Source: Bacteroidota bacterium (lineage in GTDB: Bacteria > Bacteroidota > Ignavibacteria > UBA10030). Taken from it: 38,259 bases of DNA. The notes below the pieces were generated by a model. The model worked only from the letters and a program-made list of their open reading frames with translations, was not told where the DNA came from and searched no databases. The position numbers were made by a program, and so were the translations under genes. Of this stretch, positions 28,315 to 37,757 are shown in pieces; within the stretch, counting starts at the first letter, position 1, and each line of letters opens with the position of its first letter. The DNA lies in NCBI GenBank assembly GCA_017882185.1, contig JADGQA010000006.1, forward strand, positions 1 to 38,259, read 5' to 3'.

Positions 28315-29406
28315 ATGGTTAAGATACTCAGATCATTCTCTCTTTTGATGGTTATCTTGATGCTTGTTTCCAACAGTCTTTGGGCCCAGACAGTCCAGGC
28401 AGGTATTTCCGCCAATGGAAACATATTGACAATAAGTGCAAAGCCTGATGCAGATTTCATAGCAAATTATGAATCTGGGATAGTGACTATCACGTGGTCC
28501 TCAGGATACGGTGTAACATTGGGAACACCTACGGATACGACGGGAAATTGGGCAGCCTCTTCGAGTGGGACATTAGGTGGAAACAGCTACACCATATTCA
28601 GTTTTAGTGGCGCATCAATTCTTTTGACGTGGACAAATGGAAGTATCAATACGTTATTTACCGTCCCCGTAAATCAGACGGGCTCGGGATTTGGACAATT
28701 CTCGTTGGCGACCCCATCATTTGTCACCGGGTCAGATTGGCAATTTGTAGTGTCATCAGGCACTGACATAACAAATCATGTTTCATTTTACTACAATTCG
28801 AGCACGGGCACTGATGTTCCTTTGCCAGTCGAGCTCACAAACTGCATGGCAGTTGCGAATCGCCTGAATACCGAACTCAAATGGACGACGGCGACAGAAA
28901 CGAACAATTTTGGGTTTGATATTGAAAGAAAAGCTGTCAGCACTCAGCTTTCAGCGGTGAGTGTTTGGACCAAGATTGGTTTCGTCCCCGGCAATGGAAC
29001 CAGCACAACTCCAAGACAATACTCATATGTGGATGAAGGCTTAGCCACCGGCTCGTATGATTACCGTATCAAGCAAATTGACAAGAGCGGTTCGTTCAAA
29101 TATTCAACGGTGATGCAAGTTGAGATAGGCAATGTCCCGCAGGCTTTGACGCTCGCGAACAACTATCCAAATCCCTTCAATCCATCGACCAGCCTTGAGT
29201 TTACAGTTCCGAACGATGGCTGGGCGACACTGAAAGTGTACAACTCGATCGGAGAGGAAGTTGCAACATTATTCGATGCACAAGCCACGGCCGGACGTAT
29301 CGTGCAGGCAAGATTCGATGCCTCGCGTCTTCCTTCGGGAGCCTATTTTGCACGTTTGCAATACGACGGCAAGTCGCTGATGACGAAAATGTTGTTCATG
29401 AAATAA
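28315..29406 (+). CDS. Secreted protein with T9SS C-terminal sorting domain
   Basis: A 363-aa exported protein. It has a signal peptide (residues 1-25, MVKILRSFSLLMVILMLVS then ...LWAQ), a Gly/Ser/Thr-rich beta region without a recognised family (about 26-170), a fibronectin-like segment typical of these proteins (LPVELTNCMAV...ELKWTTATETNNFGFDIERK, about 175-205, then a YSYVDEGLATGSYDYRIKQID stretch), and a type A sorting domain from about residue 280 (NNYPNPFNPST, then LKVYNSIGEEVATLF and LPSGAYFARLQYDGKSLMTKM). The sorting domain directs export by the Por secretion system and release or anchoring at the surface. The cargo function is unknown. The gene has its own promoter and terminator and lies between the two gltA tail copies. 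Confidence 0.88.
   Translation: MVKILRSFSLLMVILMLVSNSLWAQTVQAGISANGNILTISAKPDADFIANYESGIVTITWSSGYGVTLGTPTDTTGNWAASSSGTLGGNSYTIFSFSGASILLTWTNGSINTLFTVPVNQTGSGFGQFSLATPSFVTGSDWQFVVSSGTDITNHVSFYYNSSTGTDVPLPVELTNCMAVANRLNTELKWTTATETNNFGFDIERKAVSTQLSAVSVWTKIGFVPGNGTSTTPRQYSYVDEGLATGSYDYRIKQIDKSGSFKYSTVMQVEIGNVPQALTLANNYPNPFNPSTSLEFTVPNDGWATLKVYNSIGEEVATLFDAQATAGRIVQARFDASRLPSGAYFARLQYDGKSLMTKMLFMK
28932..28961 (+). repeat. Short internal repeat unit inside the T9SS protein gene
   Basis: The stretch reads as three imperfect copies of a GCT-nTCAGC-like unit (GCTGTCAGC, ACTCAGC, GCTTTCAGC) followed by GGTGAG, and encodes AVSTQLSAVS in frame. It looks like a small dispersed DNA repeat that was taken up by the reading frame. 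No other copy was seen in the window. Confidence 0.4.
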
Positions 29407-29667: not shown

Positions 29668-30828
29668 ATGAAACACCTCAAAGTGCTGATTCTGTCTGCG
29701 TCGGGGGGCGCGGGACATTTGCGCGCCGCCGAAGCACTCCATCGAACTGCGCAAGACTTAGACCTCCCGATTAAGACGGAGAACCACGACTGCCTCGATT
29801 TCACCTCATCGACGTTTAAGCGACTGTATGCAGGAACATACCTGAGTCTTGTCAACAAGACTCCAGAACTTTGGGGATATTTGTACGAGAAGGCCGAAAG
29901 CAAGCCATATCGCAAGAAAGGTCTTATCCGGCTGTTCGACCATTTTAATTACAACCGCTATCTCCGGTTTCTGAAATCCAACAAGCCTGACGCAATTATC
30001 TGTACACACTTCCTGCCGTTCATTTCCATATCAAATGAAATCCGGAAGTGGGGAATCGAAACGCCCATTTTCGCCGCTACGACGGATTTCGACGTCCATC
30101 AATATTGGGTGGATCCGATCGTCTACAGATATTATGTTTTCCACGAGGAGTCTCTCTGGCAACTGCAGTCCAAGGGAATACCTGCCCAAAGGATATCTGT
30201 CGCAGGCATCCCCGTGATGCCGGAGTTCCTTTCCAAGACGAGCAAGCGTGTTGCGAGACGATCATTCGGACTGGACGAGCGGACGTTTACCATACTCGTG
30301 CTCTCGGGCGGCTTCGGTGTTGGGCACTTTGAGGATATTGTTCGGTCGGTCGGAGAGACGCTTGCAGGCTTCCCGCGACGTCAATTCAGTCTCATCGTGG
30401 TTTGTGGGAAGAACGTGACAGCAAAGGCAAGTATCAGCACGATGAGGTTCCCGCAGAATGTCCATACGAGCCTCCACGGATTTGTGACGAATATTGCCGA
30501 GATGATGAGTGCATCAGACCTCGTCGTTACAAAATCGGGTGGCCTGACTTCGTCCGAGTCACTCGTCAAAGGCCTGCCCATGCTCATCGTTGACCCAATT
30601 CCGGGCCAGGAAATGCGCAATGCCGACCTCATCGTGGAACACGGCGCTGGATGGAAAGCCATTAATCTTGCCAACCTTGCTTACAAGCTTAGGAAAATTC
30701 TAGGAACTCCGTCAATGCTGAAAAATGCCCATAAGGCCTCGAGTACACTCGCACGACCTTACGCCGCGCGGGATATATTGACAGATGTTTACAGGCACAT
30801 TCAACCCCGGAAGGAGACCAGGCAATGA
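29668..30828 (+). CDS. MGDG synthase/UgtP-like diacylglycerol or glycolipid glycosyltransferase
   Basis: A 386-aa GT-B glycosyltransferase of the GT28/MGDG-synthase group. The N-terminal domain (1-170) opens with LILSASGGAGHLRAAEALH, the Gly-rich GGAGH motif of the family. The C-terminal donor-binding domain contains LVLSGGFGVGHFEDIV, HGFVTNIAEMMSASDLVVTKSGGLTSSE and LPMLIVDPIPGQEMRNADL, the GGxTxxE/PGQExxN pattern that binds UDP-sugar. Relatives add glucose or galactose to diacylglycerol at the inner membrane; the acceptor here is inferred. It starts at the ATG at 29668 with no obvious ribosome-binding site, and its stop overlaps the next start (ATGA). Confidence 0.88.
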   Translation: MKHLKVLILSASGGAGHLRAAEALHRTAQDLDLPIKTENHDCLDFTSSTFKRLYAGTYLSLVNKTPELWGYLYEKAESKPYRKKGLIRLFDHFNYNRYLRFLKSNKPDAIICTHFLPFISISNEIRKWGIETPIFAATTDFDVHQYWVDPIVYRYYVFHEESLWQLQSKGIPAQRISVAGIPVMPEFLSKTSKRVARRSFGLDERTFTILVLSGGFGVGHFEDIVRSVGETLAGFPRRQFSLIVVCGKNVTAKASISTMRFPQNVHTSLHGFVTNIAEMMSASDLVVTKSGGLTSSESLVKGLPMLIVDPIPGQEMRNADLIVEHGAGWKAINLANLAYKLRKILGTPSMLKNAHKASSTLARPYAARDILTDVYRHIQPRKETRQ

Positions 30829-31622
30829 AGATCAGAATAAATGGGATGACGATGAATTATGTCGAGCGAGGGACTCCCGGAGGGATCCCCATCGTCTTTG
30901 TTCATGGATTTCCGTTCAATCTTGAAACGTGGGAACCGCAGATGCGAGCGCTCCCCAACCACTTCCGGGCGATTGCCTATGACATCCGGGGGCACGGCCA
31001 GAGCGATGTCGGCGATGGTCAATACAGTATCGAGTTCTTCGTGGATGATTTGATCGCTTTACTGGACCATCTCGTAATCGAAAAGACGGTCCTTTGCGGT
31101 CTCTCGATGGGTGGCTATATCGCTTTGAGAGCTCTTGAGCGACATGCCAACAGGTTCAATGGTCTCGTACTTTGTGACACCAAAAGTGAACCCGACGGTG
31201 ATGAAGGCAAGGTGAAACGTGCCGCATCTCTGAAGGCCGTCAAGACAAACGGTGTCGATCAATTTGCCGAGGGATTTGCCAAAGCTGTATTTGCAGACTC
31301 GACGTTTCGCGACAATCCGACTTTGGTGGAGAAGGTCAAATCCATCATCAAAGCAAATTCTCCCATCGGAATCGGAGGAACGCTCCTCGCATTGGCCTGC
31401 AGAACGGATACAACTTCGGTGCTCACAAAACTGGCTGTCCCAACACTTATTCTCTGTGGGGAACACGACGTACTTACCACACCCAAAGATGCGGAATTCA
31501 TGCATGCCCGGATCAAGGGTTCATCCATGCATAGTATCCCGAATGCCGCTCATTTGAGCAATCTGGAAAACCCAACGGTGTTCAATGAACAGCTCATTTC
31601 ATTCCTCAAGGTCATTCGATAG
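30825..31622 (+). CDS. Alpha/beta-fold hydrolase
   Basis: A 265-aa alpha/beta hydrolase with a full catalytic triad: nucleophile Ser94 in LCGLSMGGYIA, Asp215 in LCGEHDVLT and His243 in NAAHLSNLENP. The oxyanion region is FVHGFPFN (25-32) and the conserved YDIRGHGQSD lies at 52-61. The family includes esterases, lipases and 3-oxoadipate enol-lactonase-like enzymes; the overall pattern resembles the latter group, but no aromatic-degradation genes are nearby. The 4-nt overlap with the glycolipid glycosyltransferase suggests a linked, perhaps lipid-related role (inference). No signal peptide is seen, so it is cytoplasmic. Confidence 0.92.
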   Translation: MKIRINGMTMNYVERGTPGGIPIVFVHGFPFNLETWEPQMRALPNHFRAIAYDIRGHGQSDVGDGQYSIEFFVDDLIALLDHLVIEKTVLCGLSMGGYIALRALERHANRFNGLVLCDTKSEPDGDEGKVKRAASLKAVKTNGVDQFAEGFAKAVFADSTFRDNPTLVEKVKSIIKANSPIGIGGTLLALACRTDTTSVLTKLAVPTLILCGEHDVLTTPKDAEFMHARIKGSSMHSIPNAAHLSNLENPTVFNEQLISFLKVIR

Positions 31623-31679: not shown

Positions 31680-32366
31680 TTGAGTACGCTCAAGGAAATT
31701 CAACAAGAGGTCGTGGCTTGCCGACGATGTCCACGACTGGTCCGGTGGCGCGAGAAAGTTGCTCAAGAGAAAACCAGGCGGTTTCAAGACTGGGAGTATT
31801 GGGGAAAGCCAAACCCAAGCTTCGGCGATCCACACGCCCAAGTCCTTCTCGTGGGTCTCGCACCGGCAGCACACGGAGGGAACCGCACCGGCAGAATGTT
31901 TACAGGAGATAGAAGTGGAGACTGGCTCTACCGTGCCCTTCACAAATTCGGCTTTGCGAACCAACCTACATCTGTTTCTCGTGAGGATGGACTTCGTCTG
32001 ATCAACTGCTACATTACGGCCACATGTCGATGTGCACCTCCCTTGAACAAACTGCTTCCTTCTGAAGTCCTGAATTGCCGCCCTTTTTTTTTGCGCGAGC
32101 TGGGTCTGTTGAAAAACCTCAAGGTCGTTGTCGGATTGGGCAAGGTTGGTTTCGACTCGGCGGTGAACTGTTACGCCGAACTCGGCTGGTCGACGTTCGA
32201 GAAACGTCCAAAGTTTGGCCATGGGGTCGAGTACAGGTTGACAGAAAGCGTCACCTTGCTTGGCTCATTCCACCCTAGCCAACAGAATACATTTACGGGG
32301 AGATTGACCGAGCCGATGTTCGACCGGGTATTCAGGCGGGCGTCGGCGATCATCAAACAGGTTTAG
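31680..32366 (+). CDS. Uracil-DNA glycosylase family 5 (UDGb), iron-sulfur type
   Basis: A 228-aa DNA repair glycosylase that removes uracil and other deaminated bases. Motif A is LVGLAPAAHGGNRTGRMFTGD (58-78; no Asp or Asn at the classical catalytic place, as usual in family 5), and motif B is GSFHPSQQNTFTGRLT near residue 200. Cysteines for a 4Fe-4S cluster are at 14, 17, 118 and 133 (CRRC, RCAPP, LNCRPF). The start codon is TTG at 31680, with GGAG about 10 nt upstream. It lies 57 bp after the hydrolase gene. It is a convincing full-length member; no other base-excision gene is adjacent. Confidence 0.93.
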   Translation: MSTLKEIQQEVVACRRCPRLVRWREKVAQEKTRRFQDWEYWGKPNPSFGDPHAQVLLVGLAPAAHGGNRTGRMFTGDRSGDWLYRALHKFGFANQPTSVSREDGLRLINCYITATCRCAPPLNKLLPSEVLNCRPFFLRELGLLKNLKVVVGLGKVGFDSAVNCYAELGWSTFEKRPKFGHGVEYRLTESVTLLGSFHPSQQNTFTGRLTEPMFDRVFRRASAIIKQV

Positions 32367-32414: not shown

Positions 32415-34259
32415 TTGACGACCGAACATTCACGAAGTGATTTGAAGATTTTGGTCATCCTGCTTGGGATTCTCGGAATCCTTCTCGTCGCCACGACCAT
32501 CCGAGGCGCATTCATCATTGACGAAATCAATTACATGGTGAATGTCATTGGCCTTCGCGAAGGAAGATTGACAGTCCCGGGCACGGAGGGGCTGAGTCCA
32601 AGTAAAGAGCTTTTGTATTTTGACCCGGAGCCGTACGATCGGATTGTCAGTTCCACGCCTGTCTTTTCGCTCGCCCCACCGCTGTACGCTCCAATTGCGC
32701 TGCCATTTATCTTATTCGGATGGCGAGGACTGACCTTACTCAACACTCTCTCGTTTATCCTCTCGGGGCTCCTTGTGTTCCTCTTTGTCAGACGCTATAC
32801 GAGACAAGCGTCCAGTGCCTGGTTGGCTGTTGCCCTCCTCCTTCTTGGCGGATATTCAATGGAATACGCACAGGGGGTCTGGCCTCATATGTTGTCCGTC
32901 TTTCTCTGCGTAGCGGCTGTGTACTGCGTCAGTCTCGTGTGGGATGGGAAAAAGTCGATCTACGCGATTCTGGGTGGATTCCTCATCGGGGTGGCATGCG
33001 GCGTTCGGGAACAAAACATTTTTCTTGCAGGATGCCTTGGATTGACAATCCTGCTCTGGGGCAACCGGCGAATTCACTCAGCTGGTTATTACCTGGCGGG
33101 AATTGCCGCGCCCTTACTCACGAGCGCAACGCTGAATTATTTCAGACTTGGCATCTTCTTTCCAACTCCAAAGACGTCCAGCTACGCCAAGTTTGTCACG
33201 AGTCCCATACGTTCAGGTTCCTGGATAAGACCATTCGAAGTGTTCTGGGTTAAAATTGTCGACTTCTCAACGTTCGCGAGCTTTCAGGATCCGGCGGAAT
33301 TCGTTGACTATTCGAGAGAACCTTCGACCGGAGCTTTCCTTGTGGCAGGCATCGTCAAAAAGGCGCTTCTTCAATCTTCACCCTGGATTGCTCTTGGACT
33401 TGTGCTTTGCGTAACGATTTGGATGAAAATGCCGAACGTTTCCGATGACCGCAAGAAGACGGTGCGCGCATTATCAATTCTCATTCTATCTGCCATAGGG
33501 ATGTTCTCGATGGCGGGTTTCAGAATGGATGGCCTTTCGTTCAATCAGCGCTATTTGTTGGAGATCGTTCCTCTTGCGGCAATCGTCATTGCACTCTGCC
33601 TCGATGGATTGTCTATCTCTCCAGTCAATGTCATCAGCGGCTTTCTGTTTGGAGCATTCTCCCTTTCTCTCATGGTCATTTTGGCATCGACGCAGCTTCA
33701 GCATCTTGCCATCCTCCGGGTACCGGTTCTGCTGGGCTTCTTGTTGATTCTGACATGGATTCTCAGGCGCCGCCTTTCAATCGGAAAGGTATTCGGAATT
33801 GTCCTTGGACTGTGTATTGGTTGGTCCTTCATGGTTCAGACCATTGACCTGGCTTCGTCGAGAAGAGTTCGGACAACAAATGCCATCGGCCTCGATTCTC
33901 TCAATGCGAAAATTCCAAACCACGCTGCCTTATTCACGTTCTGGGGTGCTCAGAAATCGACGGCGGGCCCCCTCCAGCTTGGTAAAGACGTCGTCATCCT
34001 TGACGCCTGGGCAGACATGGGAAAGGATGCGCCAATGTTGACGCGCGAATTGGTTCAGCAACATCGAAAAGTCTTCATATTTGGCACGGGTATGCCGTCT
34101 GATATTCTGCAAAACGTAAAGGGGCGAGATTCTCTCTCCATCGTGCTCACAAGGCCATTCTTGCTCTATGAATTCGTCGAATGTCGCAAGGGAAATGATT
34201 CATCGTCAGCAATTGCGACTACTCCCACACTTCCGCCTCGTCATTCGCAGATTGAATAA
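32415..34259 (+). CDS. Polytopic membrane protein, GT-C glycosyltransferase-like
   Basis: A 614-aa protein with about 11-13 transmembrane helices over residues 10-475 and a soluble C-terminal part (about 480-614). After the first helix comes RGAFIIDEINYMVNV, an acidic motif in the first outside loop like that of GT-C enzymes (PMT/ArnT type), which use polyprenyl-phosphate sugars. Further loop features are REGRLTVPGTEG and SMEYAQGVWPH. The sugar and acceptor are unknown. The start is TTG at 32415 without a visible ribosome-binding site; an in-frame stop upstream and no other start codon before the first helix leave little choice. Codon use looks like that of its neighbours. It is paired with the next, similar gene. 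Confidence 0.72.
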   Translation: MTTEHSRSDLKILVILLGILGILLVATTIRGAFIIDEINYMVNVIGLREGRLTVPGTEGLSPSKELLYFDPEPYDRIVSSTPVFSLAPPLYAPIALPFILFGWRGLTLLNTLSFILSGLLVFLFVRRYTRQASSAWLAVALLLLGGYSMEYAQGVWPHMLSVFLCVAAVYCVSLVWDGKKSIYAILGGFLIGVACGVREQNIFLAGCLGLTILLWGNRRIHSAGYYLAGIAAPLLTSATLNYFRLGIFFPTPKTSSYAKFVTSPIRSGSWIRPFEVFWVKIVDFSTFASFQDPAEFVDYSREPSTGAFLVAGIVKKALLQSSPWIALGLVLCVTIWMKMPNVSDDRKKTVRALSILILSAIGMFSMAGFRMDGLSFNQRYLLEIVPLAAIVIALCLDGLSISPVNVISGFLFGAFSLSLMVILASTQLQHLAILRVPVLLGFLLILTWILRRRLSIGKVFGIVLGLCIGWSFMVQTIDLASSRRVRTTNAIGLDSLNAKIPNHAALFTFWGAQKSTAGPLQLGKDVVILDAWADMGKDAPMLTRELVQQHRKVFIFGTGMPSDILQNVKGRDSLSIVLTRPFLLYEFVECRKGNDSSSAIATTPTLPPRHSQIE

Positions 34260-34298
34260 CGCAGGGGATCACCATCACCTCCACCTTTAGACTTATAT

Positions 34299-36728
34299 AT
34301 GAAAAACATTTCTTCGAAAAAAGGTTATACGCTCCTGGCATTGACGTGTGTCGGATTTGTCATATTGGGATTTCTCCGGCTCAACGACACTTCTTTGTAC
34401 ACCGATAGCACCCGCTATGTCATTTGGGGGACTTCCTTTTCCCACGCGAGAGGATTTGTTGACGACACCCAGCCCGACCCCGAACGTTATGTTGTTAACG
34501 CCCCATTATACTCGGTGATTTTAGCACCGGTTCTCTTGTTTTTCCCCAATTCCCTCATCGCCGCAAAAGTCTGGACGCTGCTCCTGGGAGTCTGTGTGCT
34601 GGTTCTCTTTTTTGTCTGGCTTAATCGCCGATTGGGAACCCTGCTTGCACTGGTCGGGACCTTGATACTTGCCTGCAATCCATTGATGCTGGTTATGGCA
34701 ACCGAAGCAATGTCCGAAATGTGTTTCCTGGCGATGACGATCGCAGCAATGATTCTGCTTGACTCGTTCGAAGGCGACAGGTCGATCCTGTCCCGGAATT
34801 CAGTCATCCTCCTTCTCATTCTGTCATTCCTCCCTCTCCTCCGTGAGGTCTCTGTCGCATTGGTTGGAGCGGTCGTGATCATCTTGATTCTGAAGAAGTA
34901 CTACAAAATTGCTTTGGGGATCGTGATTGGAGCCGTCGTTCTGACTGCAGCCTGGATGTTTCGGAATATGGTCCTTGTTGGCACTCCATCGACATCACAG
35001 AGCACCAACGTTAGTTTTATTCTCGGCCATTTCGTCACGCCGGGTAACACGCCCATCATCTTCGAATTGATCCAACGTGTGTTCGTCAACATTCAAGGAT
35101 TCTATGGTTACATAGCAAGCTTGCTGACGTACCCGTTTCCCCAACCACTCATTGTTAATCCGCACCAATTGTTCCGGGTCTTTTTCAAATTGGTGGGCAA
35201 CGCAAAATACATACTGCCGTTCGTCGTTCTGCCCCTTGCGGTGGTAGGCATCATCAGGGACGTCAGACAGGACTTCAAGGGTTATATTCGTCTCCTCTTT
35301 TGCATTCTTTACGCGCTTATTATTGTCGTTTATCCGGTGCAGGATATCAGATTCCTTCTTCCGTTGCTGCCATTCCTCATCTACTTCTTGCTTCTGTCAA
35401 CGCAGGCCATATCGAGAACAAGCTTGCTTCAAAACAAGAACATCAGAGTCGGATTGGCCTGTATTGCTGTAGCTCTTGTCGTTATTCCAAACCTCGATTG
35501 CGATGTCGAGCTCGCCCGCACGAACTGGAACTATCAACACGCCCCCGGCGAATTGTACAAAGAAATCAAGCAGACCGGCGTGAACAAAGAGCTCTACATC
35601 AGACCGTGGCAGTTGTTCGGTGATTGGATGAAAGAGAATCTGCCCGATAGCACGGTCATTGCGGGCACGTTCAAGGAACTGGCGATCTTCATCGGTGACC
35701 GCAAAATTCTTGAGATTAACTATGGTGTGCCGTTGCCAATGTTTGAGCGCCTGCTGAGAGACAATGGAGTCGATTATCTCTTGTCTGCGGGAGTTGACGA
35801 AAACAACCGTCCATATGAGTTTGCCATGAACGAGACCAGGCGGTATTGGTTCGAGCCCGTTCATTCCTTGAGCGGCCTCCTCCTCTATAAGGTTCATTCG
35901 ACGCTCATGGAGCCCCCGCCTGCAAATACTCTGGCAACGGCGCTTCCTGACACCAACACCCCCCGCGGAATCCTCACGCTGGGTCGGTCCTTGCTCTTGC
36001 AAGGTGAATACTCCCGGGCAATCGGGGAATTCGCAAAAGCATTCAGCCTTGGCTCCAACCCGGCATTGACGGTATTTCAGGTTACGGTCGCTTATGCTCT
36101 GTCAGGACAACGGTTCGAAGCAACGAGATCACTCGAACAGCTCTATCGGCTGCCTCAATCGACCTCCTATATTCCGGCGGCAACGTCGCACCTGCATGCC
36201 ATGGAGACATACTTGAATGCCATGAACATTACAGGAATGTATCAGAGGTCGCAAGAGCTCTTCAATGTCGCAGGATTCTATTGGAATTTCGGCTACCGCA
36301 AACAAGGATATTCTCTCTTGCGAAACATCCTCAAGGAAGACACGACCTTTTTTGTGGGCCTGCTTTGGGGATGGGACTATTCCAGGGAATTGGGAAATGA
36401 AAAAGAGGCGAGTACGTATTTGAGGATTCTTGAGTCGATCGATCGGACGAATGACGTCGTGAAGGGATTTCGGCTGATCACGGCATGTGACGATACACTT
36501 CGCCGGACCAAGAATCCTGCTGACCGAAGCCGCCTTCAACTCGAAAAAGGAAGGATCTATTGGTCTATCGGTCTTTTCGACGAGGCATTTGACTGTGTAG
36601 AACGATCGCTTGGAGAAGACCAAAGCAATCATGCCGCTTATCAGTACCTTTGCGAGCTTTTTGAAAAGACGAGTAAACCCTGGGCCCTCAAGAATGTCCG
36701 TCGGGTGATCATTGAAAAAGCACAATGA
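34299..36728 (+). CDS. Polytopic GT-C-like membrane protein with C-terminal TPR region
   Basis: An 809-aa protein. Residues 1-400 hold about 10-11 transmembrane helices, with DTSLYTDSTRYVIWG in the first outside loop and PDPERYVVNAPLYSV after it, a plan like GT-C/PMT-type glycosyltransferases. Residues 400-530 form a soluble domain (LPDSTVIAGTFKELAIFIGDRK, as in many PMT-like C-terminal domains). From about 555 to 809 come helical repeats of TPR type, e.g. LGRSLLLQGEYSRAIGEFAKAF and YQYLCELFEKTSKPWALKNV. The combination suggests an enzyme acting on exported or lipid-linked substrates with a built-in protein-binding tail; the activity is not proven. ATG at 34299, 39 bp after the previous gene, with no clear ribosome-binding site. 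Confidence 0.7.
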   Translation: MKNISSKKGYTLLALTCVGFVILGFLRLNDTSLYTDSTRYVIWGTSFSHARGFVDDTQPDPERYVVNAPLYSVILAPVLLFFPNSLIAAKVWTLLLGVCVLVLFFVWLNRRLGTLLALVGTLILACNPLMLVMATEAMSEMCFLAMTIAAMILLDSFEGDRSILSRNSVILLLILSFLPLLREVSVALVGAVVIILILKKYYKIALGIVIGAVVLTAAWMFRNMVLVGTPSTSQSTNVSFILGHFVTPGNTPIIFELIQRVFVNIQGFYGYIASLLTYPFPQPLIVNPHQLFRVFFKLVGNAKYILPFVVLPLAVVGIIRDVRQDFKGYIRLLFCILYALIIVVYPVQDIRFLLPLLPFLIYFLLLSTQAISRTSLLQNKNIRVGLACIAVALVVIPNLDCDVELARTNWNYQHAPGELYKEIKQTGVNKELYIRPWQLFGDWMKENLPDSTVIAGTFKELAIFIGDRKILEINYGVPLPMFERLLRDNGVDYLLSAGVDENNRPYEFAMNETRRYWFEPVHSLSGLLLYKVHSTLMEPPPANTLATALPDTNTPRGILTLGRSLLLQGEYSRAIGEFAKAFSLGSNPALTVFQVTVAYALSGQRFEATRSLEQLYRLPQSTSYIPAATSHLHAMETYLNAMNITGMYQRSQELFNVAGFYWNFGYRKQGYSLLRNILKEDTTFFVGLLWGWDYSRELGNEKEASTYLRILESIDRTNDVVKGFRLITACDDTLRRTKNPADRSRLQLEKGRIYWSIGLFDEAFDCVERSLGEDQSNHAAYQYLCELFEKTSKPWALKNVRRVIIEKAQ

Positions 36729-36770: not shown

Positions 36771-37757
36771 ATGAAGAATGTCCTTGTCACGGGTGGAACC
36801 GGGTTCATCGGATCCAACCTCGCCATTGCTCTTCTGCAGGAAGGATGCAATGTTCGCATTCTTCGTCGTCCAAACTCGGACCTTCGCGCAATAGGTACCG
36901 CGGATGTCGAGCACCGATTTGGAGATGTGCGGGATCCGGATTCCCTGGGTCGCGCGATGCGCGGGTGTGATACCGTCTTCCACACCGCGGCAATAGTCTC
37001 ATACTGGCGCAAAGAACGTGAGCGAATGTACGACACCAATATCACCGGCACGAGGAACGTGGTCGCTGCCTGCATGGAGGCGGGGATTCAGAAGCTTGTT
37101 CATACCAGTTCTGTCGCGGCGATCGGATCTTCTGAACAAGGTGCTTGGGCAGACGAGACCAATAGCTTCACCTGGGAACCGAACGACGCTGGTTACAGGA
37201 TTTCGAAGCATCGGGCTGAGCAGGAAGTACTGCGAGGGGTCAAATCCGGATTATCTGCCGTGATGGTCAATCCCTCCGTTGTTTTGGGTCCCCGCGATAT
37301 CCATTTCAACGGGGGCCAGATTGTCCGCGACATCTACAAGAGGCGTCTGTTCTTTTATGTCGACGGGGGCATGAGCATCGTGTACGTGGACGATGTCGTG
37401 CGAGGGCACATTGCGGCGGCTCGCAGGGGAAGAACCGGAGAACGATACATTCTCTGCGGGGAAAACCTGCAAATCCGGGATGTTTTCAGAATAACCGCCG
37501 AGGTTGTGGGGGGAATCGTTCCAAAAAGAAAACTCCCAGTTTCAGTGGTTCGAACGGTGGCGGGCTTGGCTGAGATCATCGCAATAGTGACGAACAGAAA
37601 ACCGTGGTTGACGAGAGAACTTGTAGCGCGAGCGGGGACTTCGTATCATTTTTCGTGCGCCAAAGCTCAAAGAGAACTGGGATACACGGTAACTCCATTT
37701 CGCGTCGCAGTCGAAAAGACGTTTGCCTGGTACAAGGACAACAAGTTTCTCTCCTAG
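36771..37757 (+). CDS. NAD(P)-dependent extended SDR (epimerase/dehydratase family)
   Basis: A 328-aa Rossmann-fold enzyme. The cofactor motif TGGTGFIG lies at 7-14, the active-site YRISK pair gives Tyr142 and Lys146, and Ser113/Ser114 in HTSSVAAIG complete the site. Further family marks are FGDVRDPDSL, DTVFHTAAIVSYW, NITGTRNVV and VNPSVVLGPRD. It resembles the dihydroflavonol-reductase-like/HpnA branch more than sugar nucleotide epimerases, so the substrate could be a sterol, hopanoid, sugar or other carbonyl compound; this cannot be settled here. ATG at 36771, 42 bp after the GT-C/TPR gene, same strand, so probably the last gene of that operon. Confidence 0.9.
   Translation: MKNVLVTGGTGFIGSNLAIALLQEGCNVRILRRPNSDLRAIGTADVEHRFGDVRDPDSLGRAMRGCDTVFHTAAIVSYWRKERERMYDTNITGTRNVVAACMEAGIQKLVHTSSVAAIGSSEQGAWADETNSFTWEPNDAGYRISKHRAEQEVLRGVKSGLSAVMVNPSVVLGPRDIHFNGGQIVRDIYKRRLFFYVDGGMSIVYVDDVVRGHIAAARRGRTGERYILCGENLQIRDVFRITAEVVGGIVPKRKLPVSVVRTVAGLAEIIAIVTNRKPWLTRELVARAGTSYHFSCAKAQRELGYTVTPFRVAVEKTFAWYKDNKFLS

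Follow-up and report, generated by a model that had tools for sequence, protein, structure and literature searches.

The stretch of DNA analysed here (the window) comprises 38,259 nucleotides of contig JADGQA010000006.1 in the assembly GCA_017882185.1 of a Bacteroidota bacterium (Ignavibacteria, UBA10030). Two adjacent genes of the window encode large polytopic membrane proteins, here called A and B, which an initial annotation, made from the sequence alone, had described as GT-C-like. It had also suggested that they might form a glycosylation unit together with the gene that follows, which encodes a short-chain dehydrogenase/reductase (SDR). Both frames are indeed present, and with the flanking UDG and SDR genes they are found on one strand, separated by gaps of 48 bp (UDG-A), 39 bp (A-B) and 42 bp (B-SDR). 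A foreign composition of A could be ruled out, as its GC content (0.508) compares well with that of the window (0.493) and of B (0.498). The central features are the following, where TPR stands for tetratricopeptide repeat and loop 1 for the first outside loop.

31680..32366, + strand: UDG-superfamily gene (PF03167), conserved upstream neighbour of B
32415..34259, + strand: gene of protein A, 614 aa, TTG start; probable GT-C-fold membrane glycosyltransferase without TPR
32520..32525, + strand: codons of D36-E37 of A, putative catalytic loop-1 pair, invariant in 5/5 rows
34299..36728, + strand: gene of protein B, 809 aa, ATG start, clade B1; predicted GT-C core followed by a TPR tail
34404..34409, + strand: codons of D36-S37 of B, putative catalytic loop-1 Asp, D36 invariant in 40/40 rows
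35961..36722, + strand: TPR tail of B, residues ~555-808; 14 helices in the model, TPR_14 above cut-off
36771..37757, + strand: SDR gene, HpnA-like (TIGR03466, 319.6 bits versus a cut-off of 367.65), kept in synteny with B in the family

Predicted folds and conserved residues

The AlphaFold model of B, built on 40 relatives (mean pLDDT 90.5, pTM 0.90), divides into a GT-C core (residues ~1-430), a small alpha/beta domain (~435-535) and the TPR tail (~555-808). Its first matches in Foldseek were STT3 (E 1.2e-7), AglB and ArnT (E 5.7e-7), and VIA-align gave Z scores of 24.0 for ALG12, 23.9 for STT3, 22.1 for ArnT and 21.5 for Pmt1-Pmt2 over 355-443 residues. Most of these alignments span residues ~1 to ~535, and the one with Pmt stops at residue 423. 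Considering this confident predicted model, B is very probably a GT-C glycosyltransferase. The tail of about 250 residues that had been read from the sequence is clearly visible in the model, and TPR models match most of the B-family rows. The profile of the PMT_2 family matches 31 of the 40 rows at E<=0.01, of which one is known to score above the cut-off (32 bits), and the B of the window is not among them: it stayed unmatched by PMT_2 in hmmscan, in the family-row scan and in a six-frame search. As background, the same profile matches 10 places in the window's genome.

Of 150 relative genomes, 53 contain a match to B at E<=1e-5 and 42 of these reach E<=1e-20 (strong matches), a distribution that marks B as a genuine protein family. 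The tree contains two supported clades, B1 (22 rows, including the window) and B2 (18 rows), with the reservation that a number of its rows are long or unusual in composition. A pattern scan of viral contigs with part of B yielded nothing useful, and a sequence search of solved structures with its GT-C part returned 6 rows, all of one calcium channel.

The model of A could be built on only 5 sequences (pLDDT 64.5, pTM 0.70) and is poor in stretches within residues 30-88 and 252-315. The top Foldseek match was ArnT (5f15, E 8e-9), and VIA-align scored ALG12 (Z 23.3), Pmt4 (22.6) and ArnT (19.8), with STT3 also matched (range 19.7-23.3). The C-terminal part is of the alpha/beta type. The GT-C fold is thus probable for A, and we consider a GT-C glycosyltransferase the likely identity of the protein as modelled. 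PMT_2 scored 29.0 bits with A in the six-frame search (cut-off 26.1), yet was absent from the hmmscan listing, and NF047440 scored 60.4 bits (E 1.4e-16), below its cut-off of 200 bits. A was found in 6 of the 150 relative genomes, in two cases as a fragment at a contig edge, and in 2 of 395 genomes in a phylum-wide draw, both from the window's family. A pattern scan of genome contigs and a sequence search of solved structures with A gave nothing useful. The A gene of genome G021 (L046:7021-8766) is shorter by ~46 residues, in frame, near residues 108-153 of the window's A; the gap falls in the early membrane-helix region and reflects either a deletion or an assembly collapse.

The acidic residues that the initial annotation had pointed out in the first outside loop are found at the positions claimed, DE at 36-37 of A and D36 of the motif YTDS in B, and they are conserved throughout (5/5 rows for A, 40/40 for B). 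In B, the other residues invariant in 40/40 rows are G52, P69, P77, K90, F143, N223, E256, R260, G317, P346, R351 and P355; the loop-1 motif reads DS in 39 of the 40 rows and DC in one. In A, loop 1 is poorly modelled around D36-E37 (pLDDT <50). The equivalent acid of the TMTC proteins has been equated with D55/E56 of ArnT and D77/E78 of Pmt1 (PMC7801869). By analogy, D36 of B and D36-E37 of A would be the catalytic or metal-binding acid, an assignment to the GT-C active site that follows from conservation and position rather than from residue-level superposition.

Gene order and linkage to type IV pilus genes

The relatives of A and B are often encoded near type IV pilus (T4P) genes, which makes A and B candidate pilus-decorating enzymes. 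The family of B is physically linked to T4P genes in three taxonomic families. In 18 of the 42 genomes with B, PilC is found no more than 20 kb from a B-family gene, whereas uniform placement, a null that ignores shared ancestry, predicts ~1.2 and reached 8 at most in 200,000 simulations. The comparison included all 62 B matches at E<=1e-20 and the PilC matches at E<=1e-80, excluded weaker rows, and counted genes on different contigs as unlinked. Among the genomes with B, linked genes occur in 13 of 23 of the window's family (f1), in 2/2 of family f2 and in 3/3 of family f5. In these three families, genes of the B2 type adjoin genes for PilC, PilB and pilin-like proteins (G005, G006, G019, G032, G042, G059 and G091, the last copy typed by tblastn only). 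The genome of the window itself carries a B2 gene 5 kb from PilC (contig C182). In this genome (G000) PilC ends one contig and begins another (L103 on C289, L062 on C182), which suggests that C182, with B2, and C289, with the genes from PilB to the secretin, are adjacent in the chromosome.

The most complete arrangement is found in G021, where a single contig carries, in order, B1 and SDR, an Ig-repeat protein, a secretin, PilO-like and PilM/N-like genes, two ATPases, PilC, a pilin, two GT-C genes and A, followed by B2 8-9 kb further on. The names PilM/N-like, PilO-like and pilin-like are based on position and the look of the sequence, since none of these genes was matched by Pfam. In G027, two pilin-like genes follow shortly after the end of A. 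All of the 14 other B1 loci fetched from f1 have an Ig-repeat gene in the flank, and in 9 of the 14 genes of the secretin, PilO-like or PilM/N-like kind are seen as well. The big Ig-repeat protein is not an obligate partner of B1, since it also occurs beside T4P genes in genomes without a strong B (G020, G026, G037, G047). A pilin match, read by eye, is present in all 42 genomes with a strong B and absent in 8 of the 98 genomes of the order, none of which has B, although the families confound this comparison.

By our reading of the loci, a GT-C or GT-C-like gene occurs within 10 kb of PilC in 22 of 44 genomes, many of whose loci were fetched for holding B. Among 19 PilC loci chosen without a nearby B, 4 (G009, G035, G040 and G064, the proteins of the last two without a Pfam scan) had TPR-bearing or GT-C-like polytopic proteins; a twentieth locus had a pilin only. 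One of the two proteins of G009 is above the PMT_2 cut-off and the other reaches 24.2 bits versus 26.1, both proteins of G035 gave TPR only in Pfam, and the GT-C labels of proteins in G008 (no Pfam match) and G033 (TPR only) derive from tblastn to a PMT_2-like relative. Between A and a GT-C beside the pilin in G021 the similarity amounts to a BLASTP E of 0.003 over 38 residues and an hhalign probability of 35%.

A few further observations were made on these loci. In f5 (G035, G040, G070; loci L131, L133, L112) polytopic proteins are encoded near pilin-like genes, several with a WDD-type first loop; those scanned carry TPRs and are possibly TMTC-like enzymes. The same loci contain, near the pilin-like genes, an unmatched polytopic protein of 410-460 aa. 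The pilin-like protein at L070:3589-3969 and its cluster relatives begin with MGQQQLLLIILGVIIVGIAIAVG, so that their leader would be very short; one of them scanned gave no NCBIfam match, and a relative no Pfam match. In the loci L066 and L073, the A of G014 and the B2 of G001 each have a calcineurin-like phosphoesterase on one side and an H+-pyrophosphatase on the other, belonging to the same clusters in both genomes, with one extra gene intervening and the pyrophosphatase turned in G001, as if one GT-C had replaced the other.

Several results weigh against a function connected to the pilus. B is near PilC in 0 of the 12 genomes of f3 that have it, none of the 8 f3 loci fetched has a T4P gene, and the setting of B is different there, with a histidine kinase and a HAD hydrolase as neighbours. 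A B within 20 kb of PilC is likewise missing in f6 (0 of 2 genomes) and in 10 of the 23 f1 genomes with B, in the last case partly because contigs end. PilC is present in 111 of the 150 genomes versus 42 for a strong B, hence many T4P-bearing relatives are without B. The contig of the window ends 500 bp past the SDR gene, with no T4P frame in that remainder. For A, the fetched stretches around its paralogue on C283 and around the A of G006 have no T4P gene, and in G014 it is found 4.4 kb from a pilin-like gene, without PilC or PilB in the stretch fetched. Finally, the synteny of B1 with T4P genes within f1 may simply be inherited, considering that in two f2 genomes (L134, L135) the SDR and Ig genes adjoin the T4P cluster while no B match exists anywhere in the genome.

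Gene order also separates A from B and the SDR. We fetched 15 B1 loci of f1, of which 13 include the upstream flank. The UDG gene is the upstream neighbour of B in all 13, directly so in 12, and the SDR gene lies within ~2.1 kb of B in 12 of the 15. A, on the other hand, is beside B only in the genome of the window among the 6 genomes that have it (the copy of G029 is at a contig edge, where its neighbour cannot be judged), and only there is it inserted between UDG and B. This rules out a conserved A-B tandem and goes against the proposal that A, B and SDR form one unit. Recent duplication could likewise be discarded, as hhalign detects no relationship between the two profiles (probability 4-5%). 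The best reading is that A and B were recruited separately, as enzymes in their own right and not as subunits of one machine; their tandem order is probably local to the window, and a two-component system should not be deduced from it. Further upstream the window contains the following features, the first two of which belong to the conserved run, the GT-B gene in several relatives.

29668..30828, + strand: MGDG/diglucosyl-diacylglycerol synthase-like GT-B gene (PF06925; PRK13609, 200.7 bits versus a cut-off of 500)
30825..31622, + strand: alpha/beta hydrolase gene
28315-29406: type A sorting-tail protein of the type IX secretion system (T9SS) (PF18962, TIGR04183)

Known systems and the sugar donor

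TfpW, described in PMC11841053 as the GT-C arabinosyltransferase of the Pseudomonas aeruginosa type IV pilin, may be taken as the closest working precedent by analogy. Like TfpW, A and B are GT-C membrane enzymes by prediction, and where TfpW is a pilin accessory gene, B2 and A are located near pilin genes in several relatives; a location beside the pilin gene itself is observed in relatives of the B2 type, and for A it is observed in G021 (with two GT-C genes between) and in G027. Unlike TfpW, the pair of the window is not beside a pilin on its own contig, which ends after the SDR, and the likeness noted here concerns enzyme class and gene setting. The layout of B, and not of A, is that of the animal O-mannosyltransferases TMTC1-4, which have a GT-C core followed by TPRs and a first-loop Asp, and full-length homologues of this type have been reported in many prokaryotes (PMC7801869). 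The loop-1 motif differs, however, being DS in B and DD in TMTC, and the TMTC segment DUF1736 was neither among the 7 families listed for the window's B at E<=1 nor among the 25 for the 40 rows.

Both A and B share predicted fold and loop-1 acid with PMT_2 (PF13231), ArnT (GT83) and PMT (GT39); the PMT_2 profile matches A in the six-frame search and most B rows at E<=0.01, whereas the window's B does not reach it, and B adds the TPRs. NF047440 (LA_3751/LA_3752 putative glycosyltransferase) matches all 5 A rows and one of the GT-C proteins beside the pilin in G021, although the A of the window remains far under the cut-off; no literature on LA_3751 was found. The T4P locus of G021 encodes two TMEM260-like GT-C proteins (PF11028) next to A, one with 22.9 bits versus a cut-off of 24.2, but PF11028 is not listed for the A or B of the window. 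The O-oligosaccharyltransferases of the TfpO/PglL type are characterized by a Wzy_C-type domain, and no such family was listed for either protein at E<=1.

With respect to the donor, the initial annotation had seen no lipid-linked-sugar synthase nearby; in G038 a GT2 gene resembling such synthases directly follows B, 73 bp downstream. The best models of this GT2 and of a GT2 on contig C68 of the window's genome are AglJ, PpgS, ArnC and dolichyl-P-hexose synthases, all with scores below the equivalog cut-offs. The GT2 on C68 has a pilin-like gene on one side and two PMT_2-TPR proteins on the other, a GT2 located near B2 in G002 shares 51% identity with that of G038, and GT2 relatives of the latter were matched in 6 places of the window's genome, with identities of 26-33%. 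Such polyprenyl- or dolichyl-phosphate sugar synthase-like genes fit a polyprenyl-phosphate monosaccharide donor. A donor pathway in the genome of the window, not specific to this locus, is therefore plausible as judged from gene content.

Proposed function and alternatives

We propose that A and B are periplasmic GT-C glycosyltransferases that use a polyprenyl-phosphate sugar, with a pilus-linked protein as the likeliest acceptor, a combined reading to which we give about an even chance. Both enzymes would take the sugar from its carrier on the periplasmic side and place it on an extracytoplasmic protein, while the TPR tail of B, which presumably lies in the periplasm, would serve to hold either the acceptor or a partner. 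A protein is rather more probable as acceptor than a glycan or a lipid. The likeliest candidates would be the type IV pilin itself or some other protein that is exported by the T4P apparatus of this lineage or anchored there, and that the acceptor is linked to the pilus is a working hypothesis we hold at somewhat less than even odds. The general role in glycosylation that the initial annotation had envisaged is retained here, as are the GT-C cores and the loop-1 acids, while the single unit is abandoned.

The strongest alternative, which we nonetheless consider unlikely, is that the substrate of A and B is a lipid or polysaccharide (lipopolysaccharide core, capsule or lipid A), modified in the manner of ArnT, with the proximity to pilus genes as inherited synteny. 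Foldseek places ArnT first for A and high for B, the B1 genes of f3 are unlinked to T4P, the conserved run includes the glycolipid-synthase-like GT, and G038 has a gene that, judged from sequence, resembles a sugar nucleotidyltransferase (L078:2101-3117) ~3.7 kb from the GT2 beside B. However, B2 is tied to pilin and PilC genes in f1, f2 and f5 in differing arrangements, no O-antigen or capsule set was seen among the annotated neighbour clusters (in which not every gene is annotated), and TPR tails would suit protein partners.

Less probable still is the version of the initial annotation in which A and B serve the O-glycosylation of T9SS cargo or of periplasmic proteins in general. The genome of the window does have the T9SS (PorU) and sorting-tail proteins, one at 28315-29406, consistent with a T9SS-bearing host, and another beside the A paralogue on C283. 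Yet the co-occurrence check suggested at the time is unable to discriminate and was dropped: PorU is present in 150 of the 150 genomes (above the curated cut-off in 142), versus 6 with A and 42 with a strong B, so that a role in T9SS is neither supported nor excluded by it, and no specific association is visible, with the T9SS genes around B unmapped. As for the view that A and B constitute a single enzyme of two subunits, or one pathway, for which the SDR would make the sugar, the short gaps (39-48 bp) and the SDR accompanying B in most same-family loci are outweighed by the confinement of the A-B neighbourhood to the window, the lack of a detectable sequence relationship, and the HpnA-like SDR found near T4P clusters in two f2 genomes without B, which leaves this reading very improbable.

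A and B are ordinary in fold and interesting in setting, in that their relatives occupy T4P loci in some families and not in others. Extending the pilus-linked reading, one may speculate, as a rather doubtful possibility, that the order within the Ignavibacteria carries dedicated TPR-guided pilin glycosyltransferases, and that GT-C proteins of no or only distant kinship (B2, A, TMEM260-like, TMTC-like) have been swapped in and out of the T4P locus, each setting a different sugar coat of the pilus, possibly as part of an arms race with phages that bind the pilus; the B1 and A of the window would then be diverged members. Among the titles of one open-access collection we found none relevant to T4P glycosylation in Ignavibacteria, nor any on pilin, GT-C or TPR that concerned this lineage. 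If the pilus-linked reading is true, the combination of GT-C core and TPRs familiar from TMTC in animal O-mannosylation would gain a bacterial substrate that can be tested, namely the pilus, in a lineage that has been little studied.

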